Source: Pseudeuparius sepicola (Eukaryota > Arthropoda > Insecta > Coleoptera > Anthribidae). From it: 64,000 nucleotides of DNA. Below are positions 1,618-51,943 of this stretch, in pieces (the first letter of the stretch is position 1; the number at the start of each line of letters is the position of its first letter). The stretch lies in the NCBI GenBank assembly GCA_963920635.1, contig OY987299.1, positions 128,647,373-128,711,372 on the forward strand, in the 5' to 3' direction. The position numbers and the translations under genes were made by a program. The notes below the pieces were generated by a model, which did no database searches, was not told the origin of the DNA, and saw only the letters and a program-made list of their open reading frames with translations.

Positions 1618-2056
1618 AAAGAAATTAAAGAATCAGCATTTATTCTAGGAAATAAAGACAACTGTGTTGCTGAATGTTCAGTAAAATATTATTGCCACTT
1701 ATTCATTGAGAAGTTAGTATAAATAATTAGGTAGAACACAGGGTACAATATCAGACAGTTGGCTAGGCTATTGTTTCTGTTGTCATGACATTTTAACCTG
1801 AAATTTATTAATCTGTCATTTCACTTTGACGTGACATGATCTTTGAGAAAGGAGGAAGATTTATTCTCCGAAAGCTCAGGAAACAAATATTGTTGAAGAT
1901 ATTTTTTGAGTTACAAGTTCAAAGTTTAGTACATTTACTGTTAAGAATTTATTAATTTTTCAGGCAACTTGAAAAAGTTGTCTTTTAACCAGTTTGGTGG
2001 CGAAAAACCCAATTAAAATTCAATGGATCTGTTTACGCCACAAATAAATTTTAGAA
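1618..2056 (+). mobile_element. Penelope-like element 3' tail, copy A
   Basis: The first ~110 bases encode a decayed copy of the final residues of a PLE protein (IKESAFI... then AECSVKYY), collinear with the better preserved copy at 61331-61627. The following ~330 bases match that copy's 3' non-coding tail closely, including a CAACTT/AAGTTG hairpin near 1963-1980 and the ATTCAATGGATC end. A shorter related stretch (GACGAAAAACCCAATTAAA...) occurs at 3178-3230. Everything upstream of the C-terminus, including the endonuclease and reverse transcriptase, is absent, as expected for a 5'-truncated retroelement. Confidence 0.75.
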
Positions 2057-2299
2057 AATACAAATAAAGCGTATTTTGGCCATTTATTAAATTAAATGTA
2101 ATTTTTGACAGGTATTTCAAATGACGTCGCGACGTTTAATGATCTCATTTCGAATCTTTTTGGAAGCGGAGATGATCGCCACAGAGTAGTTTCATGTTAG
2201 ACCAAAAATAAAAATAATTCCCTTATGGCGGACACTGTATATAGTATTTCTTTCTCTATAACAGTTTTGTTAACAAAAAATAGTTATTTATGCAACAAG

Positions 2300-2399
2300 T
2301 GCATAAAGTAGAACTTTTTTTCATGAATGGGAAAGTTGCACGCACGAACCGCAGGTGAGTGCGCGCAATCCCATGAATGAAAAAAAGACACTTTATGCA
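2300..2399. repeat. 100-bp hairpin repeat
   Basis: TGCATAAAGT...TTTTTTTCATGAATGGGA is matched by TCCCATGAATGAAAAAAAG...ACTTTATGCA, leaving a loop of about 30 nt rich in CG dinucleotides. No target duplication was seen. Confidence 0.65.
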
Positions 2400-2415
2400 T
2401 GAGTTTCATACATTA

Positions 2416-2896
2416 TTTTTTATACGATCGTGCTTAAACATTGAAATATTTGGGATGGGATTTTTGTGTTATATACTAAAGGGCATATAAATGCACTATG
2501 GTTTTCAATTACGAGGATTATAATATTTAGATCGCGGTCTCACTACGTTTACACATAGTATTGAAATCGATTTGAATATGTTTCTAGAATTATTGAAAAC
2601 CGCATGAAGAGATTTTGAGATTGATTTGAATCTCAAAATAAATTTTCTTATTTTCGGGATTTAACGCCACATTTACCATTTATGAAAACACCAAACTGCA
2701 TTACACTGAATTCGATTCCAAACTCCATGTAAACGTAGTAAGGAAGTTTAGAGTGAAAAAAAGTTAACTTTTTTCACTCTAAACTGCTCAGAGTAAAAAA
2801 AAAGTAAGTTTTTTTAACTTGTTAAAAAAAGATATACTTTAGGCATTTAAAAAGGTTAAAAAAAGTAAAGTTTTTATAACGATCGTATAAAAAAGT
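2416..2896. mobile_element. Inverted-repeat element, TTTTTTATACGATCGT ends
   Basis: The ends TTTTTATACGATCGT (2417-2431) and ACGATCGTATAAAAA (around 2879-2893) are inverted repeats. A second inner pair (CACTACGTTTACAC versus TGTAAACGTAGTAAG) suggests fold-back architecture. At 2746-2784 lies a near-perfect 39-nt palindrome, GTTTAGAGTGAAAAA pairing with TTTTTCACTCTAAAC. No coding content. Confidence 0.55.
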
Positions 2897-3383
2897 ATTT
2901 AATACCACTCCGGTGCCACTCGAAATACGCTGTAATAAACTACAACAAAATTAAAACTTGTTTGCATTGCTAGCACCCTATAAAATTTGTAGACAGAGAA
3001 AAATTATTATACCTACACAGCAAGTTCTGTAGAAGGAACAATTTAACAAATAGCTTGCCCTTTTTTCATTTTTCCAAGTTGGCGTTCAACGTGGTGCGAT
3101 TTTTGAGTTTAATTAAAAATTGTAACGATATACAGCAGACAACAATTTGTAGTGTGGTTCAGGTGTTCAGGTTTGTGTGACGAAAAACCCAATTAAAAAT
3201 TAAATGGATCTGTTTGCGCCACAAAGAAAATTCGACAATAGATATAGAGGACGATTCCGTTTTGAATTAAACTAGGATTGGGAGAATATCGGAAAATGTT
3301 GCCATAGTTCGATGTAGGTATAAACTTTTTATTTGGGACCGTATAAGAAAGATACAATGCCAGTTAAATAATCTGGACACAAG

Positions 3384-4464
3384 CGAGGCCTACTATAAAG
3401 ACAGGCCATGGCGCACAAAAATCACGTGGCCATCTTAGTCCGACGTTACATGTCGTTTGTCACATAACCGAAAGCGGCAGCTTAGGTATTGAGAAGTTTT
3501 AAATGTTTAAAGTGATTTTAAACATCTCAGTCTATATTTCAGAAACAAGTCTGTGTCTAGTGCGCGTGTGTCCCGGCGGAGGGGAACCGCCCGGGTGTTA
3601 TTATGGCCTCTGGATGGGAGCCGTGCCGTCCAGGAGTATTGGTGCCGTTCGCGCCGACGCGTGAGCGCTGTAAGGGGAATTCTCCCCCCGGAATGGACAG
3701 TGGAGCCTGAGACACAGACGGGTGAACTGCTTACGAGAGATCCGCGAGTTCAGACGGTCCGGGTGGCTGGAAGCCGTTCCCGTTGACCACGTTCGGGTTT
3801 GTGTCTTTTATATTCACCATTCACCTTGTGCGAAATAAATCAGTGTTGTAACGTACTTGAGGATTTTCGTTGTCGACACACGCCCTGATACGGTTCTTAT
3901 TCAACTCATTTTTATTTCGTAAAAATAACCTAAATACCAAATATTGGGTCTGTTTATATTATATTTATACAAATTACAAAAGCCGGGAAGAAAATATCAC
4001 CATAACAACATTTGCTTTGCATGGGGATGAAAATTTGCGCCAAAAATGGATTCGTCAAATTCCAACTGAGATTTAATTTCTAAAAAACCCTTAAGTATGT
4101 GTGGCTCACACATTTTCAAGAAAGTGAAACAATTAAAGTGGACAAATGTGTTGTGGGAGGAAAATACCTATAGAGAATATCACCTAAGCTCCCAACAATT
4201 TTTGAGAATGTGCCAAAATATTTGAGTGCAGTGCTCTCAGCCCAAAATAGCTGAGGCAGGTTGAAAATTTTGAAAAAACAATTAGAGAAAGCCTGAATGC
4301 ACAAAACCAATAATGTAATAGATGAAAGAAAACTCGCCAAATTGTTACGAAATATGTTTTTTCTACTTATCTCCAAAAATGCCTTTTATTATATAGGACT
4401 AAGTTGGTCACGTGACTACGCGATTATGCGTTAGCGCCATGGCCTGTCTCTATCGTTGGCCTCG
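3384..4464. mobile_element. TIR element with 9-bp target duplication GGACACAAG
   Basis: The ends CGAGGCC (3384) and GGCCTCG (ending 4464) begin imperfect inverted repeats of about 60 bp that share AGACAGGCCATGGCGC and TCACGTGnCCAnCTTAGTCC. Immediately outside are identical 9-bp direct repeats GGACACAAG at 3375-3383 and 4465-4473, the signature of insertion. A 9-bp duplication is typical of Mutator-like elements, but no transposase is present, so the superfamily is inferred from duplication length only. The interior holds a GC-rich segment (3540-3790) and AT-rich sequence with no recognisable protein. Confidence 0.8.
3540..3850 (+). other. GC-rich interior segment with downstream AATAAA
   Basis: This stretch is much richer in G+C and CpG than its surroundings and ends with CGAAATAAATCAG, an AATAAA polyadenylation-like hexamer. 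It contains an open frame of 77 codons (3553-3786) rich in arginine, with no recognisable domain. It could be captured host sequence, an LTR fragment or the terminal exon of an element gene; none can be shown. It lies wholly inside the 9-bp-TSD element. Confidence 0.3.
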
Positions 4465-4747
4465 GGACACAAGTTACCAACGTTAAACGTCGAAGAGCGC
4501 GACAGAAAATAAATACATTTTCAATTTTTGGTTGCTCCATATTCAAAGGGAAAACCCACAGTCGATATTACTGCTGTATCAAATTTGAATAAATGCTGTA
4601 TAAACATCGAGAAGGATTCGATGGAAAAATATTGTCGCTATGCAAATAGTGTTTTTCCATTCACGGTGATCGCTGCCAGATAACGACAAAACATAGGCAT
4701 TTTATTTATTTTTCTACAGAGTGATTAACTTTATATGTTTAGGACTC

Positions 4748-5708: not shown

Positions 5709-6029
5709 TAAAACAGTAATAATATTTAAAAAGTAAGTCAATGTGTAATGTGGCAGAGATGTAGGTAATATGACCAAGGAACAAAGAAAAATGAGCATTG
5801 TGACTAATGCCTTAAAATGCCTTGTAATATGAAATAAATTTGTTGAAGAATCGTGGCTGCGGTTAAAATTGTCGGCAATTTAGGAAAATGATGATGGGAC
5901 GAACATTAACGTGTTTTTCCAGATAAAAGTGATGTTTACGGTCTGAATTAAATCATCGTTAAATCGTGGAAGGCACCGTGATTGTTTTCTTAAGACTTAA
6001 GTTATCCGGAGTCGATTTAGTTTAAAGTA

Positions 6030-7459
6030 CAGTGTCCTCCAAAAAGTTCGCACCATAGAGGGGAAATTTTTGATTAACGTTTTATTTTGAAATTTAATTT
6101 TGGGGTTACCTTTTGCTTTAAAAAATATGAAAAATAACCCACTCAAACGTGGTCATGTGACTTTCGTTATCTGTCAAAAATGACATTTAAAAATTTATAT
6201 CGCCAAAAATGGGTTTAGTTGCTAAAATATCAAAGTTTTACTTGAAAAAGTTGTGTGTTTTCAATTTTACGTAAGTGTACCAAATTTGAACGCTCTACTA
6301 AAATATTTAGTTTTTTGCCAATTTTTAATATTTATGAAATTTCTGAAAATTTCAAATACTCGAAACTTCGTAAAAACTATTTTATATCACTAAATTTATC
6401 ATTATATTAATTTTTTATTACTAATTACCGATAAGAATAGGTATTTTTCAAAAGAAAATGATATTTACGCTTTAAAATTCTGTTATGTTTGTTGCAAAGT
6501 TGATGTACCGTCTAGCATTTGGGGTATAAATTTAGTTACATTACGTTTACCAGTTCTAAATTGATGCCAAAATAATAATGAATTAAAATATCATCAAACT
6601 ATTTTACGTCTCTAAGCAAAATTCTCGACTTTTATGGAACAAATAATTATTACCTTTAAGTTTAATTTCATATTAATCGATATTCATGAGTAGGCCATGG
6701 AGAGAATAGAAGCAGTTATCAAACTGTCAAATAAAAACAACTGTAAAATAAAAACAATTGCTTCTATTCTCTCCTGGCCAATCAATATCCAATCCCAATC
6801 AATATCGATTAATATGAAATTAAACTTAAAGGTAAAAATTATTTGTCCCATAAAAGTCAAGAATTTTGCTTAGAGACGTAAAATAGTTTGATGATATTTT
6901 AATTCATTATTATTTTGGCAACAATAATTTAGAACTGGAAAACGTAATGTAGTTAAATTTATACCCCGAATGCTAGACGGTACATCAACTTTTCAACAAA
7001 CAACAGAATTTTAAAGCGTAAATATCATTTTCTTTTGAATAATAACTATTCTTATCGGTAATTAGTAATAAAAAATTAATAGAATGATAAAGCTAGTGAT
7101 CTAAAATAGTTTTTACGAAGTTTCGAGTTTTTAAAATTTTCAGAAATTTCATAAAAATATAAAAAATTGGCAAAAAACTAAATATTTCAGTAGACCGTTC
7201 AAGTTTGGTACACTTACGTAAAATTGAAAATCAAACAACTTTTTCAAGTAAAACTTTTTGATATTTTAACAACTAAACCCATTTTTAGCGATATACTTTT
7301 TAAATGTCATTTTTGACACAAGACGAAAGTCACATGACCACGTTTGAGTGGGTCTTTTTCATCTTTTTTAAAGCAAAAGGTAACCCCAAAATTAAATTTC
7401 AAAATAAAACGTTAATTAAAAATTTCCCCCCTATGGTGCGAACTTTTTGGAGGACACTG
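6030..7459. mobile_element. Long fold-back element, CAGTGTCC ends, TA flanks
   Basis: The element starts CAGTGTCCTCCAAAAAGTTCG and ends with its complement, flanked by TA on both sides (6028-6029 and 7460-7461). The two arms match along nearly their whole length of ~700 bp, meeting near 6740 at a centre that is itself palindromic (GAGAATAGAAGCA... / TGCTTCTATTCTC). The TA duplication and CAG...CTG ends fit the Tc1/mariner group. No transposase remnant was found. The frames at 7304-7546 lie in an arm and are not genes. Confidence 0.9.
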
Positions 7460-9027
7460 TATAAAGACCTCTATAATATTAACGGAAAATACCACGCAAA
7501 AACACACTGCAAAACATGTGTATTATTTTTACGAAAAGCAAGATAATAACTAAATTATTACAAAAATTTTTTGGTAATGATAATGTTGGTGCTTGCTTTT
7601 TTTTCAAGTTGTTAAAAGGCTGTAAGACTGGCAACACCGCTAATGCAAATGAAAGCTAGATAATTCCTCATTTTTCTTCATGGCTTTCAACGATAAGAGT
7701 GAACAATGAAATGCGATAACAACGCTCTCAAAGATTCATTTGTCCTTTAACAAAAAAAATCATTTTGCTTTTTAATGATCCTTTATGTGATTGCAATTTT
7801 TTTTCACCCTGTATATGAGCATTGAAACTGATTCCCATTGTTTCATTGCGTATAATTTGAACAGAAATGTTGCTAACGAGCACACGAAACAAAAACATTA
7901 TTTAGTTTTCCACTATAAGTACTCGTATTTCTACCTTGTCTATCATATTCCGTAGTATTACAAACTTGCAGAAACACAATAATTACGGGCCAGCGACTCC
8001 ACCTTAACGAGTTAGCCCAACCCTTCCCTTTGCCGGAAATTTTAATAAAGGTCCCTTTCGGAAAATAGCTGCAAAATAATATTTAAAACTTTTGATTAAC
8101 AACGTGTGTAACTTTTAATTAATTCTTAATTAGTTCAGTTCGAAATAAAAGTTTCCGCTTTCGCCATCCTAGACGGCTCTTTTGTTGCCCGGTCTCCTAA
8201 AGTCACCGATAACGCTAATGCTGTTTTATTTCGGCAGTGCCAGACGTACTTTTCTCTCTAACTTTCTACCGGAGGTTGTTTGTCACCTGCAGAAGCTTCT
8301 AATTAGTTTGGAGACCTTCCTAGGTTTCTGCTGATTAAGTAAATATTACCGCACGGCAAGTTGCTAATTAGGCCTGACGTTACCCGGGTGCAAAATTTAT
8401 CAGTGGACTTGACCGGTGACGCCGAATGCTCATTAAAATAGTTAAAAGTGTTCGGAGGCCGTGGATTTGAAGCAGCAATAAAACGCAAAGTTTTAATCTT
8501 GTTATTCAAATGTTGTCCAGTGTAGTCGAAAAATTTATTCATGGTATTATGTATTGGAACAATCAGATCAGAATACCAAGCAAATTAATGCTAGCGGCGT
8601 GTTTAAGATTTCAGCTGGGGTTAACTTATAGTACAAGTCCACGTCTGACGTTTTGCATGACGTTGACGTCATTTGAAACCGCCCTTAAGGATACATAATT
8701 TGCCATTTGAAAACTTTTAAATTGGAAAACAAAAGTTGGCGATTCCAAATTGGCCGGACAATGTTGTCAAAAACTTCTTCGGCGCCATTAAAGTTTAACT
8801 CCCGGAAAGCCCCTTCGCCCGAATTTACTGCAGTGTCGAATTAAAAGTCGCAATTTAATTACTAGAACTAACGGCCAATCTGATGGAACCCACCAGCGGC
8901 CATAAGGAGCTGACGTCTTCCGGCGAAATGTAATAACAGCTCTTTTCTGTCGGAAACAGTGGCGCAGAGAAAATATTTTTTCTTTGTCAGGAGTAACTAA
9001 AAGCTTCATAATTTTAGAAAAAATATA
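7460..9027. other. Single-copy DNA, no gene; GC-richer 8000-8960
   Basis: No coding region is supported. A lone element terminus (TTCACCCTGTATA, about 7804-7817) is present without a matching partner. From about 8000 the sequence becomes richer in G+C and contains clustered TTAATTAA/TAATTAG words (8115-8135, 8365-8375) and a TGACGTCA box near 8665. This type of island recurs through the window and is probably ancestral non-coding DNA between element insertions; a regulatory role is only a possibility. Confidence 0.4.
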
Positions 9028-10456
9028 CAGGGTGCTGGGTGACCGTATTTCGAGCCTTTGCATGGGGATCTTGGTTATCTTAAGAGATACGAGGTCGGTT
9101 AAATTGGGGCAAAGTTGCGGAATTTGATGCCGAGTAACATGGTAAAAAAAAATTTGGCTGGCCCTTCTCGTTTTTAAATAATGCGAAAAACTGAAAATTG
9201 TCGTTTTCGTTTTTATTTTTTTAATCGAAAACGAATGGCCGCTGGACATTTCTAAGTTAAACATTATTAAGGCACTTTTTTAATCTATGGACAAAAATAT
9301 GACGATCAACTTTTATTTTTCTTATGGGCGCCATATTAGATTTTCGTATTTTTGAATAGAGGATTTTTTTCTGGTCAGAATGATATGTCACACATTATGC
9401 TTTACTTTGTTTTTCTTGCCGTAATATCAAATTAATCGTTTTTGCATAGAGTGCCTTGGAAATGTAAGCCCCATAATGTTTGACGTTTTTGCATAGAGTG
9501 CCTTGGAAACATAAGCCTAGTTACCCATTGTTGCGAAGTGTACTTTAAAATATTGTTTAACAGTTCAGTAAAAATTCAGCTACTGTTAAATTTATTGACT
9601 AAATAAATCATAAACGTACCGCGAGGACAAGAGTATGATCTGAGACCTTGTTATTTATTCGCCTTTTGCCATATAACACATTAACACTAAAAGAGTCAAA
9701 CTGGAAACACAAAGAACAACAAAAACCTAGACGAGTAGACAATCCTATTTTACAATAAATGTTCAATTTGTCCTCCTTGTTCCTCAAGGCACAATGCAGC
9801 ATGTTTCTTTAAATTGTTTATGGCTCGTCCAATATCCCTTCGACGTCATTTATATTTGAGGAATAATACATTTGAATCATGTAACGCTTTTATTCATGTG
9901 AAAATGCAATTTTTTCAGTAAAATAAAGTATCCGTGACATTTAAAATTGTACTTATGTTTCGAAGGCGTTCCATGCAGAAATGTCAAACATTATGGGGCT
10001 TATGTTTCCAAGACACTCTATGCAAAATCGATTAATTTGATATTACGGCAAGAAAAACAAAGTAAATCATAATGTGTGACATGTCATTTTAACCAGAAAA
10101 AATCCTCTTTTCAAAAATGCAAAAATACAATATGGCGTCCATAAGAAAAATAAAAGTTGATCGTCATATCTTTGTCCAAGGAGGCGATAAAAAAAGCGAG
10201 ATCATATTTAGATTCCTTGTAAAAAAGTGCCTATATAATGTTTAACTTAGAAATGTCCAGCGCCATTCGTTTTCGTTAAAAAATAAACGAAAACGACAAT
10301 TTTCAGTTTTTTCGCATTATTTATTATTATTTTCGCGCAATTTTTTTACCATGTTACTCGGCATCAAATGCCGCCACTTTGCCCCAATGTGACCGACCTC
10401 GTATCTCTTAAGATAACCAAGATCCCCATGCAAAGTCTGGAAATACGGTCACTCTG
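9028..10456. mobile_element. Long fold-back element family A, copy 1 (CAGGGTG, TA flanks)
   Basis: TA precedes CAGGGTGCTGGGTGACCGTA and follows its degenerate complement at the right end (10457-10458). Arms of ~550 bp include AGAGATACGAGGTCGG and ACATGGTAAAAAAA and match copy 2 at 54167-55278. The middle encodes a transposase C-terminus on the minus strand (9750-9845). I infer a Tc1/mariner-type element that has lost most of its transposase while its inverted repeats expanded. Confidence 0.9.
9750..9845 (-). pseudogene. Mariner-type transposase C-terminal remnant
   Basis: Read on the minus strand this segment gives RRDIGRAINNLKKHAALC followed by LEEQGGQIEHLL and a stop. The closing pattern (basic helix, C-x-E, a Gly-Gly, H-L-L, stop) is the usual end of insect DUF4817-associated mariner-like transposases, which close with a CIEANGGHFEHLL-like tail. 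The upstream catalytic domain is missing and frameshifts precede the fragment. It sits in the middle of a fold-back element, consistent with that element once having encoded its own transposase. The family assignment is by motif memory, not a search. Confidence 0.65.
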
Positions 10457-12780: not shown

Positions 12781-13845
12781 GAGCCGGCCGCATGATTTCA
12801 ACTCTCATAAGATTATAGAATAAGATGTTATGTAAAATGTAGACAGTATATTTCTTTACTTGAAGCGAGTAGGTTGCCTCAGATAATATGGGCCCGATCA
12901 TTGTTATTTAAAGAAGTTGTGGTTAATTTTTAATTTTTTAATAGGTACAACCCGTCCCACGAACATATTTACTACTTTTTCGCAAAAGTCTTTTGATAAA
13001 TTTGAAAAGTGCCATTCTAAAAATCGAAGGAGGTGCTAAATTTCCTAATTGGGTCTTGCACTTTCCTTCAGTACCGAAAGAAATCTCGAAAATCCGATAT
13101 TTAACCAAATTTCCCGAGTTCCGATTTTCAAGTTTCGAGAAACGGGACGGCTGTAGAATTTGCGAAATTGACGGGAAATCCTGAGGAACCGCTCTTAGAA
13201 ACTGCGGGTTTTTTCTCATTGTTTGATTTTTCGGGGGCACCGGAAACATCTGCACCTCACCTGAAGACTTGAGGGAAGCTTTAAAAATTCCGACCCCCCC
13301 CCCCCCCCCCCCCGAGTCGAAATAACTTAGCTGTAGCTCGGCGAAAAAGGGCAATTTCTGACAGTTTACTTTGGCTTTTAGGTGACGGGAAATGCCGACC
13401 AATCACGTAAAAAAAGATGCATCCCACCGGCGTTGGTCGTTTCTTTCGCCAAAAATCCTTAATAACTTGAAAACGGAAAATAATTTACCTGAAAAAGTTT
13501 CGTTAAATATGTTGAACCGTTCTCCGGCCATCTCGCCATAGCGTCAGATCTCCCGAAAAACGCGTTTGAATTTTTGTTTGCTGTGCCTCAAACGGTATAT
13601 GTCACTTCTAAAGGACCAAGGGACCTTTTTTATGGTTGCTCCATGGACCTTCTTTCCGATTTTGTTCTATAATCATATGAGAGTAGATTTGTCTAAAAAT
13701 TAACCACAACTTCTTTAAATAACAAGGATCGGGCCCATATTAATTGAGGCAACCTAGTCGCTTCAAGTAAAGAAATATACTGTATACTTTTTACATAACA
13801 TCTTATTCTATAATCTTATGAGAGTTGAAATCATGCGGCCGGCTC
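12781..13845. mobile_element. Fold-back element with GAGCCGGCCGCATGATTTCA ends
   Basis: Arms of about 150 bp (12781-12931 and 13695-13845) are near-perfect inverted repeats ending in GAGCCGGCC/GGCCGGCTC. The ~765-bp loop is unrelated to the arms, has moderate G+C and includes a 20-base poly-C tract at 13294-13313. Frames in the loop (12938-13402 minus, 12993-13184 plus) have no recognisable domain. No target duplication was identified. Confidence 0.75.
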
Positions 13846-14371: not shown

Positions 14372-15888
14372 CAGGGTACGTTTTTTCGCTGACCACTGTG
14401 GGGATCTCGGAAACTAGCAGAGCTAGAACAAAGGTTAAATGGGGAAATAATTGCAGTTTTGAATGCTCAATCTAATGCCCCTTTTGGATTTTTAAAAAAG
14501 TTTAGATATGTGGAAAAGAGTGACTTTTTGCTATATCATCAGATCTCTGTAGCTCCGTTATTTCTGATTATACATAAAAAAGTGTAGAGACAAAAAAATG
14601 TATATAATTTTGGGCTTAATAAGATAATATAATCAAATTTTTACGTTGTTTGTGATTTTTGAGATATGATCTAAACTTGTGTTTTTTTAAATGTAAATCT
14701 TAGTTGGCTGTGGCCTTATTAAATCGGCCATTTTTTGAGCTTTCCAAAGATATAACACTCGGCATTGTTATAAAAAATAAAAGAGCTATGGCTAATTTCC
14801 TGATTTTTTTTAAATTTGCACATACTCAGCCATGGAATATTTTCATAATTACGTTATATTTTATAATTATTAGACATACTTCAAATTTTCAAATATTTTA
14901 TTTTTAGCTGGTAACAAAATGTAACAAAATAAAACAAAAATTATCATGATGGAGCTCCACCACATAATTATTTGCCCGTAAGAAATTGATTAGATCAGCT
15001 CTATCCAAATAGTTGGATAGGGAGAAATAGACCTATTTCCTGGCAGCCCCGATGCCCCGATTTGTCTGTTTTGGATTTCTTTTTGTGGGGAATAGTATAA
15101 AATAAAGTATGAGACAATTGATGAATTAAGAGTAGCTGTTTTAGAAGCAATTGCCAGTATTGACAGGCGCTCTCTAAGAAAGGTGACAATTTCAGTTTTA
15201 AAAAGATGCAATATTTGCATAAATAATAATGGTGGATTGTTTGAACACCTTTTTTATTTTAAAAGGTGACCTTTTAAAATAATAATAATTTGAATTTTTT
15301 AATTTTTGTTTTATTTTGTTACATTTTGTTACCATCTGAAAACAAACTATTAGAAAGTTTGAAGTACATATGTCTAATTATAAAATAGAACGTAATTATG
15401 AAAATATTCCATGGCTGACTATGTCAAAATTTAAAAAAAAATCAGAAAATTAGCCATAGCTCTTTTATATTTTATAATAACAATGCCGAGTGTTATATCT
15501 TTGGAAAGCTCAAAAATGGCCGATTTGATAAGGCCACAGCCAACTATGATTTACGTTAAAAAAAACACAAGTTTATGTCATATCTCAAAAATCACAAACA
15601 ACATAAAAAAATTGGATTATATTATCTTATTAAGCCCAAAATTATCTACAATTTTTGTCTCTACAGTTTTTCTTTATAATCAGAAATAACGATGTTACAG
15701 AGCTCTGATGAAATAGCAAAAAATCACTGTTTTCCAAATATCTAGTGAGCCATGAACTTTTTTAAAAATCCAAAAAGGGCATTAGATTGAGCATTCAAAA
15801 CTGCAATTCTTTCCCCGCATTTAACCATAGTTCTAGCTCTGCTAGTTTCCGAGACCCCCATAGTGCTCATCGAAAAAAACTCACCCTG
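14372..15888. mobile_element. Long fold-back element family B, copy 1
   Basis: Flanked by TA (14370-14371, 15889-15890), with CAGGGT...ACCCTG ends and arms of ~550 bp sharing GAAACTAGCAGAGCTAGAAC and GAATGCTCAATCTAATGCCC with their complements. Copy 2 is at 30908-32308. The ~330-bp centre holds a transposase remnant on the plus strand. This fits a Tc1/mariner element with greatly enlarged inverted repeats and a reduced coding region. Confidence 0.92.
15031..15269 (+). pseudogene. Mariner-type transposase C-terminal remnant (PDLSVLDFFLWG)
   Basis: The plus strand reads PISWQPRCPDLSVLDFFLWG, then after a stop and a one-base frameshift YETIDELRVAVLEAIASIDR, RRSLRKVTISVLKRC and NICINNNGGLFEHL. 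The SPDL-x-x-LDFFLWG block is the region of the last catalytic acidic residue in mariner/IS630 DDE transposases, and the closing CI-x-N-NGG-x-FEHL is the characteristic C-terminus. Only the last third of the enzyme remains, with a stop and a frameshift, so no active product is expected. A sister copy is at 31455-31690. Confidence 0.8.
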
Positions 15889-16345: not shown

Positions 16346-17239
16346 AACATATCTTAGTTACTTGAGTAAAAGCAGTTAACATTTTTGGTATACCTTAAAT
16401 AAGGATCTATTCTATAAATAGTGAGTTACTAAAATAACAACTGATATGAAATTATATCCCACACCTGACACCATATGATAAGCGGGGAATTGTACACACA
16501 GAAAATATACGCTACGCGGACAGAAGTGCCAGTAGCATTGGGCTCGTAAAATATGTATAGCACACTGAAAGTTGGTTTTGCCTTGGCCTAACAGATGGCG
16601 CTCGGATGCAGAATCGTTCTATTTTTAAAACCGTAAAATACCCTCCGATAAAAGTCACCGCTAGAGGCGCCAGCAGTCAGCTGAAGAGCCTAACCGTGTT
16701 GCCGGTGGTTTAGGAATAAAGGTTTCATAAACGCGTCTATGCTGGCGGCGGCTTTCAGTCATCAAAATCTATTTTCGGGCAGACGGGCAGAGGCCTTGAA
16801 CTATACGAAATATAACCTAGTGGGAGCATAGCTATTTTATTATTTGCTTCGTCTTTGTAGAATCCGTATGACGTATACTAAGCTATACAGAGTGCTTCAG
16901 AGCCAATATTAATTATCCGATTAAAATATATTAAGATGTTACAAATAATATAGTTTATTCGTATCTTATTTACTAATAATTATACACTTAGTATACGGTA
17001 AATATTTGTTCTACAATGTAGAAAATATGTACAGGATGTCAATGATACCAATTTTATGGGTTTTTACTATTTATAATTTTGGGCCTAACGAAAGTTTACA
17101 GAATAAAATCATAAATCATGAATAATACTTGTTGCATATTAAATTTATCATTCAAATCTCTGTTTCCAAATGTTTTTTCTACCTATAAGTATTGTTGTAT
17201 TATTGAAATATTCATTTATCAAATGATCATGAATATCAT

Positions 17240-19085
17240 GATCCCCGCAAGGACGTTCCTAATCATTCCAAATGCACGAATTCGTGGTTGAAAAAATTTG
17301 TTGGGCGAAAGTTACCCCGACTACCACCACGATTTTTAGCTAACGATCCCAGATGCTCAAATTCGTGCTTTAAAAAAATTGTTGGGCGAATAAACTACCC
17401 CAGCACCCCTTTAGGAAAAAAAATGATAACTTTATTGTCGGATCCTCGCTGATTTTAGCAAGGACGTTCGTAATGATTCCAGATGCACTAAATCGTGGCT
17501 GAAAAAATTTCTTGTGCGAAAACTACCCTCAACGCCCCTTTAAGAACAAAAATGATTCATTGTCGAATCCTCTCCAATTTTAGCAAGGAACGTTCCTAAT
17601 GATTCCAGATGCGCGAATTCGTAGTTGAAAAAATGTGTTGTGCGAAAACTACCCCCACTACCCCGTATTAAAGAAAAAAATATAACTTTCATGGTACGAT
17701 TCCCACCGTTTTAGCAAGGACGTTCCTAATGATTCCAGATAATGTACAAATTTGTACTTAAAAAAACTTGTTGGTCGAAAACTACCCCAAGCACCCCTTT
17801 AAAAAAATTATAACTTCATTGTCGGATCCTGGCCGATTTTAGCAAGTAGGTACGTTCTTAATGACTCTAGATTCACGAATTCGCGGTTGAAAAAATTTCT
17901 TGTTCGAAAACTACCCTCAGCACCCCTTTAAGAACAAAAACGATAACTTCATTGTCGGCTCCTCGCCAATTTTACCAAGGACGTTCCTATAATGATGATA
18001 GATGCGCGAATTCGTGGTTGAAAAAATTTGTTGGGCCCCCCACTAACCCTTAAAGAAAGCTAACTTTCATGATACGATTAGCACCGTTTTTAGCAAATTA
18101 TTGGGCGGGAACTACTCCAGCATCCATTTGAAAAATTATAACTTCATTGTCTCTAGATTCACGAACTCGCGGTTGAAAAAATTTCTTGTGCGAAAACTAC
18201 CATCAGCAGCCTTTTAAAAACAAATATGACAAGTTTATTGTCGGATCCTTAGCAAGGACGTTCCTAATGATTCCAGATGCGCAAATTTGTGGTTCAAAAA
18301 ATTTGTTGGGCGAAAACTACCCCCACTACCCCTTAAAGAAAAAATATATAACTTCCATGGTAAATTCCCACAGTTTTTGGCAAGGACGTACCTAATGATT
18401 AAAGATGCACAAATTATTTGTGCTTTAAAAAAATTGTTGGCCGAAAACTACCCCCAGCACCAAAGCAATTATAAGTTAATTATCGAATCTTGGCTGATTT
18501 TAGCAAGTACGTTCTAAATAATTCTAGATTCACGAATTTGCGTTTGAAAACATTCTTTTTCGAAAACTACCCTCAGCAGCCCTTTAAGAACAAAAATGAT
18601 AACTTCATTGTCGAATCCTCGCCAATTTTAGCAAGGACGGTCCTATAATGATTCTAGATGCGCGAATTCGTGGTTGAAAAAATTTTCTTGGGCAAAAACC
18701 ACCCCCACTACCCCTTAAAGAAAAAAACGAAACTTTCATGGTACGATTCCCACCGTTTTTAGCAAGGATGTTCCTAATGATTCCAGATGCACAAATTTGT
18801 ACTTTAAAAAACTGTTGGGCGAAAATTACCCCCAGCACCTCTTTAAAAAAGTTATAACTTGATTATGGGTCGATTTTAGAAAGTACGTTCTAAATGACTC
18901 TAGATTCACGAATTCGCGCTTGAAAAAAATTCTTGGGCGAAAACTACCCCCAGCACCCCTTTAAGAACAAAAATGATAACTTCATTGACGGATCCTCGCC
19001 AATTTTAGCAAGGATGTTTGCAATGATTCCAATTCGTGGTTAAAAAAATTGTTGGTCGAAAACTACCCCCAGCACCCCTTCAAAA
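17240..19085 (+). repeat. Minisatellite array, CTACCCC orientation
   Basis: About 15 units of ~120-130 bp carry, in order, AGCAAGGACGTTCCTAATGA, TTCCAGATGCnCnAATTCGT, GGTTGAAAAAATTTGTTGGG, CGAAAACTACCCCCAnnACC and a TTCATTGTCGGATCC-like block. Units alternate in detail (TTCATTGTCGGATCC versus TTTCATGGTACGATTCC), so a ~250-bp higher-order period is present in part. Copies differ substantially, indicating age. All open frames inside the array are by-products of the repeat. Confidence 0.85.
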
Positions 19086-20330
19086 AACGGCAATAATCAA
19101 ATTAAAAACGAACTTCCGGGGGTGGGAAGGGGTAGTTTTTGCCCCGCAAATGTTTTCAACCACGGATTCGTGAAATAAAGGATGTAGTGAATGTGTTCTC
19201 AAAAAACGACAATAATCAAATTAAAAACAAACTTTCTGGCGTGGTAAGGGGTAGTTTTTGCCCCGAAAATGTTTTCAACCACGGATTCGTGAAATAAGGA
19301 ATATAGTGATTGCATTTTCATAAAACGGCAATAATCAAATTAAAAACAAACTTCCGGGGGTGGGAAGGGGTAGTTTTTGCCCCGTAAATGTTTTCAACCC
19401 CAGATTCGTGAAATAAGGGATGTAGTGAATGTGTTTTCAAAAAACGGCAATAATCAAATTATAAACGAAATTCCGGGGGTTGGAAGGGGTAGTTTTTGCC
19501 CCGTAAATGTTTTCAACCCCCAGATTCGTGAAATAAGGGATGTAGTGAATGGGTTTTCAAAAAAGACAATAATAAAATTAAAAACAAACTTTCGGGGGTG
19601 GGAAGGGGTAGTTTTTGCCCCGCAAATGTTTTCAACCACGCATTCGTGAAATAAGGAATATAGTGATTGCATTTTCAAAAAACGACAATAATCAAATTAA
19701 AAACGAACTTCCGGGGGTGGGAAGGGGTAGTTTTTGCTCGCAAATGTTTTCAACCACCTATTGGTGAAATACGGTTATAGTAAATAATAAATGCCCTTTC
19801 AAAAAACGACTAAATACCTATAATCGTCTCAAAAGCAATATCTGGGGGAGGGTGTAGTTTTTTCCTAACAATTTTTTTCAACCACTAATTCGTGAATTTG
19901 GTATCATTTGTAACGTCCTTGCTAAAACGGTGAAGATCGAACTAAGAACAATGGAATTATCAATTTTTTCAGAGGGCGCATGGGGTAGTTTTTGTCTTGT
20001 AATTTTTTTCTACCACGGATTCGTGAAATAAGAGTTATAGTGGCTACGCTTTCCAAAAACTACGATAGTCGGACCAAAAGCAAATCTATCTGAGGGTTGG
20101 AAGGGATTTTTGCCTGTAAATTTTTTCTACCACGGGTTCAAGCATCTGGAATAATTTGCAACGTCGTTACTAAAAACGGGGCAGATAATCGGACCAACAA
20201 CAATGTCGTTATAATTTTTTTTCCTTGAGGGGTGTTTTTGCGCCGTAATTTTTTCAGCCACGGATTCGTAAAATATTGGATGTCATTTCTAAAAACGACG
20301 ATAAAAATAAATCTCTCGAGGGAAGAATTC
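19086..20330 (-). repeat. Minisatellite array, inverted (GGGGTAG orientation)
   Basis: The repeat switches strand near 19085. Six consecutive units with a period of ~119-120 bp (start phrase ACGGCAATAATCAAATTAAA at about 19086, 19206, 19326, 19445, 19566, 19684) are followed by more diverged units to 20330. These units are more alike than those of the opposite array, implying later expansion. The frames at 19377-19649 and 19454-19678 are repeat artefacts. Confidence 0.85.
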
Positions 20331-20574
20331 TATAGTTACTGCTGACAGCCTCACTGTTAACCTTGAATTCTAAATGGGCAAGCTCATTTTATTAGGGATC
20401 TTCTCTATATTTTTATAGTTCGGTGAAACCACTGACTAATTGCACAATCCGGCAACGCCGCCTTCCGATTCTTTTCCCTAGCGTGCTGCCGCCTGATATT
20501 GAGTAAATAAAGTACCAAGGCCGTGAAGGCAGAACTATGGAAGATTTCTTCTATAGACACTGCTGAATGCCAGG

Positions 20575-20602
20575 GGAAGCCGGCTTTTGAGAGCCGGCTT
20601 CC
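20575..20602. other. Perfect 11-bp hairpin near right end of composite element
   Basis: GGAAGCCGGCT (20575-20585) pairs exactly with AGCCGGCTTCC (20592-20602) across a 6-nt loop. It lies about 70 bp inside the right terminus. Rolling-circle transposons carry a 3' subterminal hairpin, though normally closer to the end, so the placement supports that reading only weakly. Confidence 0.6.
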
Positions 20603-20673
20603 TTTCGGGCTGCGAAATAATTACATTGTGTGGAACTTCTGTCCGCGTAGCGTATATTTTCTGTGATTGTACA

Positions 20674-27118: not shown

Positions 27119-29807
27119 CACGGCAAAAAAGGAATTGTAATATTACACAATTTAACGTTGGGTAAATTACGACCAACATTATGTTGTGTAAAGTTCCGTA
27201 ACTCTGTGTAAAACAGATTTCCATAATAAAATATGTAATGAAATTTACATAGATTTTCCAGTAAATGTTCTGTTTATAATGTTATTTTCCATAACATTTC
27301 TGTACAATTAGGTATTTAAAAAAAATCGTGTAAAGGAACATATGCTTTTATGCGATTTTCAAGATTGTTACATGCATTTTCACATTTAAATTTGGAAAGT
27401 TACATAATCTTAAAAGAAACTCACCATGTACCTATTATTATGTGATTTTACCATCTTTTCGGGGATTTCAAGAAAACTACATAATTTTATAATTAATATA
27501 CCATATTTTCTTATGTAAAATTTCAGTAATTTTTCTTTGTTTTTTCATTGATTCTGTATTTTTTATGGTCTCATATATATATATAGGGTGTTCCGGAACG
27601 AGCCTACAAAAACTATTACTGGAAGTGACTTATATACATACAACATTGTACAGGGTTTCCCATATTAAAACACCCATTTTAATATGGACATGAAATTCAA
27701 ACTTGTGATTTTAAATGAATTATTAAGTCCAACAATATGGGCTGTGTGGAGATTTGCACGCGGAATCTATCGTGTTAACGGTAATTTAACCTAAAATTGT
27801 ATGCGTATATTAAAATGGGTTCTTTAATATGCAGAAATCTCTATTTCCACTTATTTATTTTTTAGATTAAAGAAAAAAAAGTTAAGAAATAAGATACTAA
27901 TAAGGTGTAGATTATACGTACAATTACGAAGTTGAAATAAGTTTGATTTTTCTTATACAGTGTGGCCATTTTAGTGTGCAACATATGGGAATTTTTTTTA
28001 TTAATTGCACAACCAAAATACAAATATTGCCGAAAGTTGGTGCATGTTCGATAATCATATTAGGTGCCCTTAGAATGGTTGCAAGTCAAACAGCATACAG
28101 GGTAGGTCAAAAAATATAAAAATTGTTCAAGAGTAAAGTACCCTTATTTCAAAGAATTCAGCAAAATGTTATTAAGAAAAGTTGTTTAGAATTAAAAGTT
28201 ATGCCTAAATACCAAAACATGGCCTCCTAAGAAAAAAAATATTTTTTTGAAAAACATTAATAATTTTCTAAAAATATATATATTTTAATATTCCCCCTAA
28301 ACACTTTCATAAATTAATCAAAATCAAATTAATTTCTCATAGCTTTGTTCAAATTCAAGCATATTTGTAAAATTAACTTAGATTTTTAGTTTTTTAGGGA
28401 ATTGTTGCAACGATATTAAACACAACTTGTTGTTTAATAAGAAACTGTGGAAATTCATCGACGAAAAAATTTTTTTCTTAGGAGGCTATGTTTTGGTATT
28501 TAGGCATAGCTTTTAATTCTAAACAACTTTTCTTAATAACCTTTTCCTGAATTTTTTGAAATAAGGGTACTTCACTCTTGTGCAATTTTTATATTTTTCG
28601 ACCTACCCTGTGTGCTGTTTAACTTGCAACCATTCTAAGGGCACCTAATATGATTATCGAACATGCACCAACTTTCGGCAATATTTGTATTTTGGTTCTG
28701 CAATTAATAAAAAAAATTCCCATATGTTGCACACTAAAATGGCCACACTCTATATATTATTATTATTTGCATTTTGAAATATATTGTTCATTTTGCCAAA
28801 AATATTATAACATTATCACATATTTAATAGTTCAATTGATATTTTGTAAATTGAAATTTTTAATATAGGCAGCAGATTTAAAAAATGCATAAAGTACCCT
28901 ATGGTATATTTCATTAAAGTTAGGATCTTATCTGGAAATCGTCGTGCATAAGTTTCTTCTAGGGTAAGCCCAGACAATTTCCTATAACTTTTGCATTTTT
29001 TTTTCTAACTTGAAAAATAAAGAAATTATTCAAACAGGCGAAATGTTGTATATACCTATAGCCTACAGTACAAATCATCTAGTGAACTACATTAATTTAG
29101 TTTTTTTCGCAACATTTACAACTTCTAAAAAAATTTCTCTGTAGATACGCTCCCTCCAGAACATTCAGAATTATAAATAAGAATACCGGTATACCTACTG
29201 TTTTATAATAAGTATCTACATAAGTCGGTATATCATGATTTTGAAAACTGACCTTATCCATCTGGATGCACGTATAAATAAACACTATAAACAACACGTA
29301 CCCACTTATAGACACAGCAATGTTCATCCACAACACTGGCTTTTCACTTATCTTCGTCCGTAAAGCTCAGCAGCTTAAGCATGTATCCGCACTTGTTACT
29401 AGAAGTTTAGAACTGAGTCTGAGGAATACTGAGGATGATGAGAAACTGACGAGGCCCTTTGCCGTTTGATTCACGACATTGGCTATGCACCTGTAGTTGC
29501 TTGTGCCTTATTCGAATTCGCGTAATTTGTTCCGTGAATATACAGAAATGACGTAGGATCACATATATTTTTCATTGTGATATTACATAATTATGGAATT
29601 TTTCATTGTCACATTACAAACTTATATTTGGGATTTAAAATTCCACAATTTTTACGTATTTTTTCCATTTTACGTACGAAATTCTTAGTTTTTGTGGAAA
29701 ATAGCATAAAACCGTCAAATTACAAATTTTATAGTGCACGTTCAGAATAAGTTGTGTAATTTATTTCACGTAAGGTTATGTACTATTCCACTCATTTTTT
29801 ACTGTGC
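27119..29807. mobile_element. 2.7-kb element, GCACnGnAAAAAA ends, copy 1 (interrupted)
   Basis: The left end GCACGGCAAAAAAGGAATTG and the right end CATTTTTTACTGTGC are related inverted termini. The same sequence, in the opposite orientation, occupies 47977-49980. Copy 1 is interrupted at 27958-28750 by a TA-flanked fold-back element that copy 2 lacks. Minus frame 29097-29336 (79 codons, hydrophobic, starting MLWMNIAVSISGYVLFIVFI) has a partly similar counterpart in copy 2 that is broken by stops, so it may be a remnant of an element gene; no family is recognised. Confidence 0.8.
27958..28750. mobile_element. Fold-back element family C, copy 1, nested
   Basis: CAGTGTGGCCATTTTAGTGTG and its complement bound the element, with TA on both sides. 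Arms include TTGCACAACCAAAATACAAA, CAAATATTGCCGAAAGTTGG and AACATGGCCTCCTAAG with their complements; arm length is about 390 bp, so almost no loop remains. The empty site in the sister host element (TTCTTATATATTATA near 49000-49015, read on the minus strand) shows that the inserted unit is CAG...CTC plus one duplicated TA. Confidence 0.92.
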
Positions 29808-30656: not shown

Positions 30657-30907
30657 GTAAATATTTAACAAGCTACCTCTGAAAGAAGCCCTAAAACTTT
30701 ATTTTTTCTCAATATAACAATTATTCATTATATGCGTTTTAGTGTGATAAAGTGCATTGATTTGTTTGTAAATATAATTATTTTTAACATCGTTTTTATT
30801 GAAAATATCTTAATGGATTTTGATAGTTTCATAAAATATGGGCTGGTTTCCATGGGCGTGCATTATTTATTTTATTTTGATTGCTTCAAAATCGCCATAA
30901 ATAAATA

Positions 30908-32308
30908 CAGGGTGAGTTTTTTTCGATGACCACTATGGGGATTTCGGAAACTAGCAGAGCTAGAACAAAGGTTAAATGGGGAAAGAATTGCAGTTTTGAG
31001 ATTGATTTTTTGCTATTTTATCAGATCTCTGTAGCTCCGTTATTTCTGATTATACAGAAAAACTGTAGAGACAAAAATTGTAGATAATTTTGGACTTAAT
31101 AAAATAATCTGATCCAATTTTGTTGTTTGTGATTTTTGATATACCTATGACATAAACTTTTGTTTAATATTAAATCGGCCCTTTTTGAGCATAGCTATTA
31201 CAAAAAAATAAAAGAGCTATGGCTAATTTTCTGATTTTTTTAAAATTTCACATAGTCAGCCATTGGATATTTTCATAATTATGTTCTATTTTATAATAGA
31301 CATACTTCAAACTTTCAAATATTTTATTTTTAGCTGGCAACAAAATGTAAGAAAATAAAACAAAAATTATCATGAATTATCACCACATAACTATCTGCCC
31401 GTAAGAAATTACCTAGATCAGCTCTATTCGAATAGTTGAATAGGGAAAAATAGACCTATTTCCTGGCAGCCCCGATCCCCCGATTTGTCTGTTTTGGATT
31501 TATTTTTGTGAGGAACAGTACAAAATAAAGTATGAGACAATTGCTGAATTAAGAGCAGCTGTTTTAGAAGCAACTGCCAGTATTGACAGGCGCTCTTTAA
31601 GAAAGACGACAAATTCAGTTCCAAAAAGATGCAACATTTGCATAAATAATAATGGTGGATTGTTTGAACACGTTTTTTATTATAAAAGGTGGCCTTTTAA
31701 AATAATAATAATTTGAATTTGAGTTTTTTAATTTTTGTTTTATTTTGTTACATTTTGTTACCAGCTAAAAACAAAATATTAGAAAGTTTGAAGAATGTCT
31801 AATTTTAAAATAGAACGTAATTATGAAAATGTTCCATGGCTGACTATGTGAAAATTAAAAAAAAACAGAAAATTAACCATAGCTCTTTTATTTTTTATAA
31901 TAACTATGCCGAGTATTAAATCTTTGGAAAGCTCAAAAAATGGCCGATTTGATGAGGCCACAGCCAAGTATGATTTACATTTAAAAAAACACAAATTTAT
32001 GTCATATCTCAAAAATCACAAACAACATAAAAAAATTGATAAGATTATCTTATTAAGCCCAAAATTATCTACAATTATTGTCTTTACAGATTTTCCTTAT
32101 AATCAGAAATAACGGAGCTACAGAGATCTGATGAAATATCAAAAAATCTCTCTTTTCAAAATATCTAGTGAGCCATGAATTTTTTTAAAGATCCAAAAGG
32201 GGCATTAGATTGAGCATTCAAAACTGCAATTCTTTCCGCATTTAATCTTTGTTCTAGCTCTGCTAGTTTCCGAGATCCCCATAGTGGGCATCGAAAAAAC
32301 TCACCCTG
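30908..32308. mobile_element. Long fold-back element family B, copy 2
   Basis: TA-flanked (30906-30907, 32309-32310), CAGGGTGAG...CTCACCCTG, with arms and centre matching copy 1 at 14372-15888. Its left arm is shortened relative to copy 1 around 30995 (the GAATGCTCAATC segment is missing), so the arms are of unequal length. It carries the same transposase remnant. Confidence 0.92.
31455..31690 (+). pseudogene. Mariner-type transposase C-terminal remnant, second copy
   Basis: Reads PISWQPRSPDLSVLDLFL, stop, GTVQNKV, frameshift, then YETIAELRAAVLEATASIDR, RRSLRKTTNSVPKRC and NICINNNGGLFEHVF. It differs from the 15031 copy by scattered substitutions, and both share the same frameshift before YETI, so the coding lesion predates the split of the two copies. 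This indicates that they were mobilised after the transposase was already dead, by an enzyme supplied elsewhere. Confidence 0.8.
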
Positions 32309-33129
32309 TATATTTCAGCACTTGACACTAGCTTTACATTTGGGAAATTATGTGCAAATAAATACCATTATTTCAAATTACGTGTTAAGTCAAAATTAAC
32401 TACCTTTCCATTTTTAACATTTTTGTGATATTGGCTAAGAACTCGTTTCATGCTACTCCACTGGCTAGTCGCTATTAGGCTCCCTCATTCCTTGTCTAAG
32501 ATGGTCACTGTTGTTCCCTATACAGTCATAAATAAATTAACTACATATAGCGAAGAGGTAAATTGAACCAGTCACGTCCAGAAATATACGAATTACGAAC
32601 ATCGATTCTCAAAGGCGTAATAGCCAAAAATACGAGCCTTGCCCGTCCCGCGACTTTATAGATTGCTTTTCAATATACAGGGCGCCGCCGGTTCGCAAAA
32701 TAAATAAAGTTTTATTAGCACTCCAACTTTCAATATTCATACTTTTATTCGCCGTGAATTTTCCTGCGATGGCTCCTAAATTTCCCCGGCCAAGGGGAAA
32801 GTGAAAAGTAATTCGGGACGGGGTGTATTATTCGATTTACATTTTAAATTTTTCGGCGCGAGGTTCAATTTGTTTTCAGGGGGGGGGGGGGTGGGGAGCG
32901 AGAGAAGATAGCCCGCGTTCGGTTTTTCCATTTAATTAATAAGAAATTCTGCGGATGAATGGACATGAGAAATTAGATTAAAATTAGAGAACGCCTGGAA
33001 GTGGGGGGGGTCCCGCAGTTTGAAATAATTATTGGGTAAAGTGCTAAAATAAATTGAAAAGCACTCTCTCTCTATCCTCCAGTATAAGCCCCACGGGCTA
33101 GTGACATATACCTATATTAAAAATAAAAT
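32309..33129. other. Single-copy island with poly-G, no gene
   Basis: Contains a GC-richer part (32685-33080) with a run of G (32880-32891) and CTCTCTCTCT near 33066. One orphan ATATACAGGGCGCCG end at 32674 has no partner. No coding region is supported. Confidence 0.4.
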
Positions 33130-39443: not shown

Positions 39444-39512
39444 TGATATAATCTGTAATTGAAGGATGGTTCTTCGGTTTAGGACAGTTCTTTAAAAAAT
39501 TAAAACTCTATC

Positions 39513-39550
39513 TTTTGCAAGCTTTCGCAAAATATATTTGCTTCATCAGG
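39513..39550 (-). ncRNA. Hammerhead-ribozyme-like motif, sense tail of PLE
   Basis: On the minus strand: CUGAUGA core (39549-39543), stem II GCAAA/UUUGC with a 5-nt loop, GAA, then AGCU and U. The order CUGANGA - stem II - GAA - short self-complementary stem III (AGCU) - H matches type I hammerheads reported from Penelope-like elements. One extra A lies between the core and stem II, and stem I is short and mismatched (GC-A-AAAG with UUUU-A-GC), so catalytic competence is uncertain. Confidence 0.45.
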
Positions 39551-40749: not shown

Positions 40750-40852
40750 ATAGAGTTTTAATTTTTTAAAAACTGTCCTAAACCGAAGAACCATCCTTCA
40801 ATTACATATTTAATAATAGTGGACAAGTAAAGAAAATATATATGATATAATC

Positions 40853-51932: not shown

Positions 51933-51943
51933 TTAGGTACCTA

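Follow-up and report, generated by a model that had tools for sequence, protein, structure and literature searches.

A probable P-type, non-autonomous DNA transposon family that carries head-on satellite-like arrays in Pseudeuparius sepicola

It is an open question by what means satellite-type arrays spread in euchromatin and for what reason certain transposons take them along, and one locus in the genome of Pseudeuparius sepicola raises it in concrete form: two tandem-repeat arrays face each other head-on between short inverted ends. We ask what kind of element this is, whether the arrays move with it, and what they may do inside it. "The window" below is the whole stretch of 64,000 nucleotides that was analysed.

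Structure of the element

The element in the window is 4.2 kb long, with 31-bp terminal inverted repeats (TIRs) that abut an 8-bp target-site duplication (TSD) and head-on arrays of repeat units inside. Its two ends are called B (left) and A (right).

16489..16496, plus strand: left target-site duplication ATTGTACA, identical to 20666-20673
16497..16527, plus strand: 31-bp TIR, B end; 606 genomic matches at up to 3 mismatches
16528..17246, plus strand: unique B-end subterminal region; identity to 20 other copies is 84-99.7% where they align (some align partly)
16698..16705, plus strand: GTTGCCGG, B end; inverted counterpart of 20449-20456, in the B end of 20/21 copies
17247..19087, plus strand: left array of 1.84 kb; its 16 units are each about 119-125 bp long, mostly in an A-B-C three-unit higher-order repeat (about 377 bp)
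19088..19110, no strand: head-on junction between the arrays; single, and homologous in 21/21 copies
19111..20297, minus strand: right array, 10 units; 1.19 kb
20298..20634, minus strand: unique A-end subterminal region; 87-99% identity in 20 other copies
20449..20456, minus strand: GTTGCCGG, A end; counterpart of 16698-16705, in 21/21 copies
20575..20602, no strand: hairpin with a 12-bp stem, 64-91 bp inside the A end
20635..20665, minus strand: 31-bp TIR, A end, from the inverted-pair scan of the window
20666..20673, plus strand: right target-site duplication ATTGTACA, identical to the left copy

The inverted-pair scan of the window (16-bp exact seeds, pairs within 20 kb) found no other pair whose ends are flanked by a direct repeat of 8-10 bp, though 7 bp were repeated at two further pairs. 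The TIR begins CA (CACAG) and is perfect over 31 bp, or 35 bp long if one mismatch is allowed, and ATTGTACA is repeated exactly and in direct orientation outside both TIRs. An earlier note on this DNA had described near-identical inverted ends of 37 bp without a target duplication. The near-identical ends stand, but the length does not, because the palindromic TGTACA within ATTGTACA had been counted as inverted end, and the duplication had been overlooked.

Outside the arrays the A and B ends have only 35 bp in common. The two subterminal 300 bp, aligned overall, match no better than shuffles (155/300), and a search of the unique ends with the array-unit model gave no match. The GTTGCCGG octamers occupy near-symmetric positions, with a between-end match not above chance (98/1000 shuffles); a subterminal 11-bp pair, AGGCGCCAGCA/AGGCGGCAGCA at 169/172 bp, was found after the fact and is weak (21/1000 shuffles). 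The strong hairpin reported near one end is borne out at the right end of the window copy (z -3.5, with 1/200 shuffles as good); across copies an 11-bp stem is exact in 6/21 and shorter or imperfect in the other 15. A single CTCF-like site, AGATGGCGC, lies at 16593. Rfam at its gathering threshold and a tRNA search returned nothing.

The arrays are indeed the inverted pair of about 120-bp repeats, 1.8 kb and 1.2 kb long, that had been noticed before, with 16 units on the plus and 10 on the minus strand. A tree of the left array fits the A-B-C order for 14/16 units; the two that do not clearly follow it are a partial unit (18096) and the final one (19000). In the right array the inner six units (19111-19808) are 88% alike and show a three-unit period of 357 bp, and the outer four are 63% alike. 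Folded as RNA, 971 nt across the junction give z -6.0, with 0/20 shuffles as good, and the ten longest ungapped foldback arms among those listed measure 69-80 nt and are 70-82% complementary. Of the giant hairpin once suggested for these arrays, a foldback potential across the junction remains, in imperfect pieces.

Central tandem repeats and a hairpin by one end recall the oyster Helentron derivatives Cg_HINE, as described in the available part of PMC7492417, and the earlier note had offered a Helentron-like element as one possibility. A rolling-circle element of the Helentron/HINE type, whose repeats are central and whose hairpin is 3', has nonetheless virtually no chance of being the correct reading: in the portion of PMC4067079 available, HINEs leave the target unmodified, are flanked by T's and carry subterminal repeats of 12-15 bp, whereas here the target is duplicated and the 31-bp repeats are terminal, not subterminal, in the window copy as well as in 18/20 others.

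Copies in the genome and the fate of the arrays

The matches to the TIR 31-mer come from a 769-Mb genome in which a reversed control gave 0, and halving their number puts the family, as a rough figure, at about 300 copies. Loci with both ends, for which the earlier note had proposed a search, number at least 39 plus/minus pairs on contig C1, counted among the first 100 ends listed; the shortest of these pairs spans 3,186 bp, and none of the 39 is an array-less short form. The finding that the note had named as its refutation, that both ends occur together nowhere else, was thus not obtained. Twenty other copies were read, all from one contig and chosen for exact ends, so that end conservation among them is biased upward. 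Eighteen have their own exact 8-bp TSD, one has a 9-bp TSD and one has none; all 20, like the window copy, contain head-on arrays of units of about 119 bp around the one homologous junction. Two of them (L042 and L049) are 99.86% alike over their whole length of 5,686 bp between different TSDs, and therefore the arrays travel whole. The earlier surmise of a vehicle that moves satellite-type DNA is supported by these copies, and the family has been recently active.

The copies themselves are non-coding. A long open frame is absent from 21/21 copies, and in the 20 outside the window no frame exceeds 170 aa. Searched in all six frames, the window copy contains no Pfam family, the single match (E 0.15) lying far below the cut-off. 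A transposase relic inside the element was looked for and rejected, none being found. Eight copies (L033, L035, L036, L038, L043, L045, L048 and L050) have a 2.2-kb segment in common, and L044 and L052 hold other inserts; none of this added DNA contains an open frame above 170 aa in any copy, and we read it as nested elements because pieces of it match repeats elsewhere in the window. A few ends have hardly any units alongside (none at L003, L015 and L029, one at L012); their open frames were inspected, and Pfam found no family in the whole of L029 or in the inner half of L015.

Array length, the comparison of which had also been suggested, varies widely across the 21 copies (8-24 units in one array, 5-23 in the other), and the differences are mostly whole units. 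Relative to L042, the plus-strand array span of copies without large inserts differs by -7.00, 0, 0, -1.01, -1.00 and +6.97 units of 119 bp, that of L041 by -7.94 such units, and those of the L034/L037/L039 group by -9.03, -8.17 and -7.17 units. Unequal exchange, or slippage on the template while the gap left by excision is repaired, would probably account for such changes.

The further idea that the element is a route for seeding satellites finds no support in the unit-core matches, of which 100 out of 819 were listed with a pattern that follows one unit type. The 55 listed on C1 up to 124.4 Mb form 38 loci, of which 31 have an exact element end no more than 10 kb away; no long free satellite array was found among these loci, each of which holds at most 4 listed cores. 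Four of the seven loci away from exact ends were fetched: L065 and L066 each have within the stretch an element end with one base changed, L063 is a degraded copy, and L064 is a short relic array in which no ends could be recognised.

Superfamily of the element

Perfect TIRs of 31 bp and 8-bp TSDs agree with what the available part of PMC1562414 gives for Anopheles P elements, namely TIRs of 27-31 bp and perfect 8-bp TSDs. At the TSD positions G1, T2, A7 and C8, 46/76 bases conform, against 19.0 +/- 3.8 in flanking 8-mers (0/5000 draws as high), which amounts to a bias towards a palindromic GT...AC-type target, the exact GTnnnnAC being present in only 2/19 TSDs. The P-transposase domain PF21788 has at least 155 matches in the genome, where one P element (L059) is resident that has an 821-aa frame, 22-bp ends starting CACAG and an 8-bp TSD; its ends (CACAGA...) agree with the 31-bp TIR in only the first six bases, and the remainder differs. 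We consider the family to be, probably, a non-autonomous cut-and-paste DNA transposon; the GTnnnnAC-like target bias, together with the CACAG ends and 8-bp TSD of L059, points to P as the most likely superfamily.

No autonomous element with the 31-bp TIR was found, 30/30 ends inspected beginning with A or B subterminal sequence, and no P-transposase gene was found between 31-bp ends, though P transposases abound in the genome. Ten P loci, six of them 3.4-kb stretches that probably lack their ends, gave a best match to the 31-mer with 10/31 mismatches and no similarity to the A and B ends. Of the four P loci available with wide flanks, L059 alone gave clear ends; L062 offered a weak AT-rich 14-bp pair that does not start with CA. 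A search with the terminal motifs CANRG/YARNG yielded nothing usable, and no terminal-motif consensus is used here as evidence. Viral and prokaryote collections, in which the host would not be expected, contain no match to the end or unit patterns, nor do phage records match the B end.

Mobilisation of the same kind of non-autonomous element by a hAT transposase appears distinctly improbable. Eight base pairs is the TSD length of hAT elements too, and T2 and A7 occur together in 9/19 TSDs, in keeping with the nTnnnnAn preference given for Hermes in PMC10368747; however, the outermost positions, which are n in the Hermes pattern, are biased as well (G1/C8, 21/38), and the TIRs begin CACAG, as does the resident P element. 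Merlin families, in the available text of PMC8101967, resemble ours in 8-9 bp duplications and in internal repeats, among them one region duplicated in opposite orientation, but their ends begin GG, not CA. On the preferred P-type reading, a P-type transposase of the same genome would act in trans on the 31-bp ends and subterminal sites, and the whole element would be excised and inserted at GTnnnnAC-like sites cut with an 8-bp stagger, the arrays riding inside.

Known relatives and the role of the arrays

A literature search that covered few subscription papers and left Repbase aside did not find the same build; nearest were Galileo, Foldback and Tetris, which we compare here as the available portions of the cited papers describe them. 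Galileo of Drosophila has non-coding copies and belongs to the P superfamily, as proposed here; some copies contain tandem repeats of about 140 or 210 bp, unequal in number between the halves, and its duplications are of 7 or 8 bp with the consensus GTAnTAC (PMC4168063, PMC3573991). In Galileo, however, the repeats lie within long TIRs and in some copies only, whereas here the ends are of 31 bp, the adjoining regions are unrelated, and arrays with one fixed junction are present in all 21 copies examined. P-MITEs of Anopheles gambiae likewise combine P-type ends and 8-bp duplications with an interior unrelated to P (PMC1562414), but the present copies are 3 kb and more long and hold large satellite-like arrays, without a known autonomous parent. 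Cg_HINE elements are also non-autonomous carriers of satellite-like arrays across a genome (PMC7492417), yet of the rolling-circle class, with subterminal repeats and no 8-bp duplication expected.

Tetris, a Foldback-type element of Drosophila virilis, is non-autonomous and has inverted arrays of tandem repeats, with units of about 220 bp, alleles whose repeat number differs by a whole unit, and duplications of 8-9 bp in complete and 9-10 bp in rearranged copies (PMC4079207). Internal head-on arrays and the absence of a long open frame, both as in Tetris, would suit a Mutator-type Foldback element such as FB, Tm1 or Tetris, in which long inverted repeats hold tandem repeats. Against this stand the A and B regions, which have no further overall similarity beyond their 35 bp, and the TSD lengths of the other copies, so that we regard such an element as very improbable, and the full Foldback reading, with repeats inside long TIRs, was dropped. 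The Tetris arrays moreover lie inside TIRs of up to 1.7 kb and gave rise to kb-size satellite arrays, and arrays of that kind were not seen here.

Within the P-type reading, the arrays may or may not take part in movement. That they are pure passengers, a satellite captured once and inverted once, without a role in transposition, is plausible though short of probable, and it is otherwise compatible with a P-like transposon. Their widely varying length fits this account, as does a related unidirectional array at 244-844 of the window, around which the examined flanks show no such element; the retention of both arrays and the junction in 21/21 copies, and the lack of any listed C1 pair under 3 kb, speak against it. 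Perhaps the arrays are kept because they help the ends to meet, whether through foldback pairing or by binding more transposase, on the model of Galileo, some of whose tandem repeats carry additional transposase THAP sites according to gel shifts (available part of PMC3688188). Carried further, and as a tentative, rather unlikely proposal, the head-on higher-order arrays would be a working part, a movable and self-resizing foldback domain in which the conserved unit core binds transposase or allows the halves to pair, and synapsis would thereby be achieved between ends 3-10 kb apart; a satellite would have been domesticated as an end-pairing device and homogenised by gain and loss of whole units in gap repair. 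Retention is all that argues for a role, and a passenger not easily lost would look alike.

Carrying arrays and seeding satellites, which are usually not kept apart, are separable in this family: a vehicle can bring arrays to hundreds of places, so far with no sign that long satellites were seeded. The family combines many exact-ended copies, a shared junction that serves as an internal marker, and whole-unit length differences among closely similar copies, and such copies would let the gain and loss of units per transposition be counted.

Ends, target duplications and genomic copies

The genome holding the window (769 Mb in 16 contigs; the window lies on contig C2) carries at 16497 to 20665 a transposon of 4,169 bp, both ends of which are formed by a perfect 31-bp inverted repeat, CACAGAAAATATACGCTACGCGGACAGAAGT, with the 8-bp direct repeat ATTGTACA immediately outside them. 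The earlier note had described inverted ends with no target duplication; the ends stand, whereas the duplication does exist, part of ATTGTACA having been counted as inverted end because it includes the palindrome TGTACA. When the window was scanned for inverted pairs (16-bp exact seeds, pairs within 20 kb), this pair alone was flanked by a direct repeat of 8–10 bp, two other pairs having 7 bp.

Allowing up to 3 mismatches, the 31-mer has 315 forward and 291 reverse matches in the genome, compared with 0 and 0 for the reversed pattern searched likewise. The first 100, which are those listed, are all exact and lie on contig C1 up to 124.3 Mb; they comprise 22 unpaired ends and 39 +/- pairs spanning 3,186 to 13,445 bp, so that C1 by itself already provides other loci with both ends, which the earlier note had proposed to seek. 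The first 20 of these pairs, all on C1 with exact ends, were read closely. An exact 8-bp target duplication flanks 18 of the 20, with 9 bp in copy L035 and none in L047. In all 20, the A end (right in the window copy) and the B end (left) are 87–99% and 84–99.7% identical to the window's, respectively, over the aligned parts. A or B sequence opens 30 of the first 30 ends fetched, a set that overlaps the copies read, although in L029 the match extends for 86 bp only. No units were found in the 1.5 kb beside the end in L003, L015 or L029. In L003 an open frame (1691-2251), which we take to be esterase-like, adjoins an isolated A end, so that an element fragment stands next to a likely host gene. 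Together with short mariner-like elements, this frame may point to an insect host. Within the B end of the window copy, AGATGGCGC at 16593, the sole match to this string in the window, resembles a CTCF site; slightly more than half of the 21 copies have AGATAGCGC at that position.

Head-on arrays and their movement

A search for a coding region in the window copy found none. Its interior, apart from unique flanking regions, consists of two head-on arrays of a ~119-bp unit, as had been claimed.

Interior of the window copy
17247-19087, + strand: left array, 16 units by the unit model
19111-20297, - strand: right array, 10 units by the unit model
Unique flanking regions: B end, ~720 bp; A end, ~340 bp

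The unique regions share no similarity past 35 bp, barring low-weight near-symmetric matches of 11 bp and 8 bp, and the A end contains the hairpin previously reported near one end, with a 12-bp stem. In a tree of units, several groupings of which are only moderately supported, the left array shows three unit types that recur in the order A-B-C, with 14 of its 16 units conforming, whereas a partial unit (18096) breaks the sequence and the final unit (19000) is unplaced; the rounds, of ~377 bp, are 82–91% alike. The inner six units of the right array are 88% alike, with periods of 357 bp and 119 bp, and only 57% alike to the left units. Conservation reaches 83% in a 45-column unit core versus 71% in the rest (a contrast this extreme arose in 9 of 2000 column permutations). 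Across the array junction, a foldback of 971 nt can form (z -6.0; none of 20 shuffles as good).

Arrays in both directions are present in all 20 other copies, and each copy has exactly one head-on junction, the sequence of which can be aligned across 21 of 21; such a common junction is most simply explained by one ancestral inversion. Counted with the A end first, unit numbers in the 21 copies range from 8 to 24 for the first array and from 5 to 23 for the second (10 and 16 in the window copy). In eight copies the first array contains a common 2.2-kb segment, and L044 and L052 contain other inserts.

Copies L042 and L049 match at 99.86% across their full 5,686 bp, and each has arrays of 17 and 23 units; yet 9.3 Mb separates them and they are flanked by different 8-bp duplications. 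The element has therefore moved recently as a whole, along with its arrays, which supports the notion of a vehicle moving satellite-type DNA. First-array spans in the 11 copies without large inserts were compared with that of L042 in 119-bp units. The difference is 0 in L040 and L049, -7.94 in L041, and -9.03, -8.17 and -7.17 in L034, L037 and L039, which have a variant junction (the last two being one unit apart); the others differ by -1.01, -1.00, -7.00 and +6.97. Such changes probably arise either from unequal exchange or from slippage while gaps are repaired.

Free arrays and neighbouring repeats

The unit core, searched with up to 3 mismatches, has 819 matches in the genome (control, 0), and the 100 that were listed have at most 1 mismatch. 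On C1, as far as the last end listed, 55 of them group into 38 loci; for 31 of these an exact end from the list is no more than 10 kb away, although stretches this close to such an end make up 1.1% of the length considered. Four of the remaining seven were examined: L065 and L066 contain arrays together with a B end whose 31-mer differs at one base, their second end falling beyond the sequence examined; L063 holds a degraded copy; and L064 is a short array, a relic in which no ends could be recognised. The proposed route for seeding satellites is thus not supported, there being no long free array among the listed matches to a pattern that tracks one left-type unit; with a pattern so specific, and with the list covering a minority of the 819 places, others could be missed. 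At 244-844 the window has a one-directional, dimeric (240-bp) array of distantly related units, ~65% alike to those of the transposon, and with no ends of this family in the flanks examined; it is taken as an older relative, not a recent offshoot. Its right side is cut by a small foldback element (852-1112).

The window also contains many long, presumably mariner-like inverted-repeat elements of 0.8–1.5 kb, the ends of which are in several cases of the TATACAGGGTG or TACAGTGT type. Long palindromes enclose a weak DUF4817-like frame under the curated cut-off (38206-38589) and a GIY-YIG frame, assumed to be Penelope-like (39922-40353). The paired tandem arrays are either very recent or an assembly effect.

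Other repeats in the window
6028-7461: long hairpin element
9056-10435: long hairpin element
12781-13845: long hairpin element
14399-15854: long hairpin element
27959-28749: long hairpin element
30905-32311: long hairpin element
37608-39036: long hairpin element
39454-40806: long hairpin element
54162-55283: long hairpin element
55882-56941: long hairpin element
49946-50845: tandem array, 184 bp x 4.9, 100% matches
50856-51937: tandem array back to back with the preceding one, 359 bp x 3.0, 100% matches

Probable mobilisation and possible role of the arrays

Among nineteen 8-bp duplications (the window's and those of 18 other copies), G1, T2, A7 and C8 occupy 46 of 76 positions, versus 19.0 ± 3.8 in adjacent 8-mers (0 of 5000 draws reach this value). 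The bias is GTnnnnAC-like, exact in 2 of 19; the target consensus of Galileo is GTAnTAC (PMC4168063). Mobilisation of the hAT type is a possible alternative, as the 8-bp length fits and nTnnnnAn accommodates 9 of the 19. The P transposase domain has at least 155 matches in the genome, with open frames of up to 821 aa; a frame length of 320 aa is shared by 17 of those listed (positions 2-113). Four P loci with wide flanks were examined. L059 contains a P element (2031-4493) with an 821-aa frame, enclosed by 22-bp ends (CACAGACTAAACAGACTTGCCG) and flanked by an 8-bp duplication; in L062 there is a weak AT-rich 14-bp end pair with an 8-bp direct repeat; and no ends were detected in L060 and L061. 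The L059 ends agree with those of the transposon in the first six bases only, and none of the ten P loci compared resembles the A or B end. We infer that a P-type transposase would mobilise the element in trans.

In Galileo, some tandem repeats contain transposase sites, as demonstrated by gel shift (PMC3688188), which by analogy makes a transposase-binding role plausible for the arrays. Such a working role fits the fixed junction and the absence of short forms among the 39 listed pairs; these features would also fit arrays that are passengers. The transposon itself duplicates 8 bp at insertion and carries its arrays inside as it moves, and their length changes mostly by whole units.
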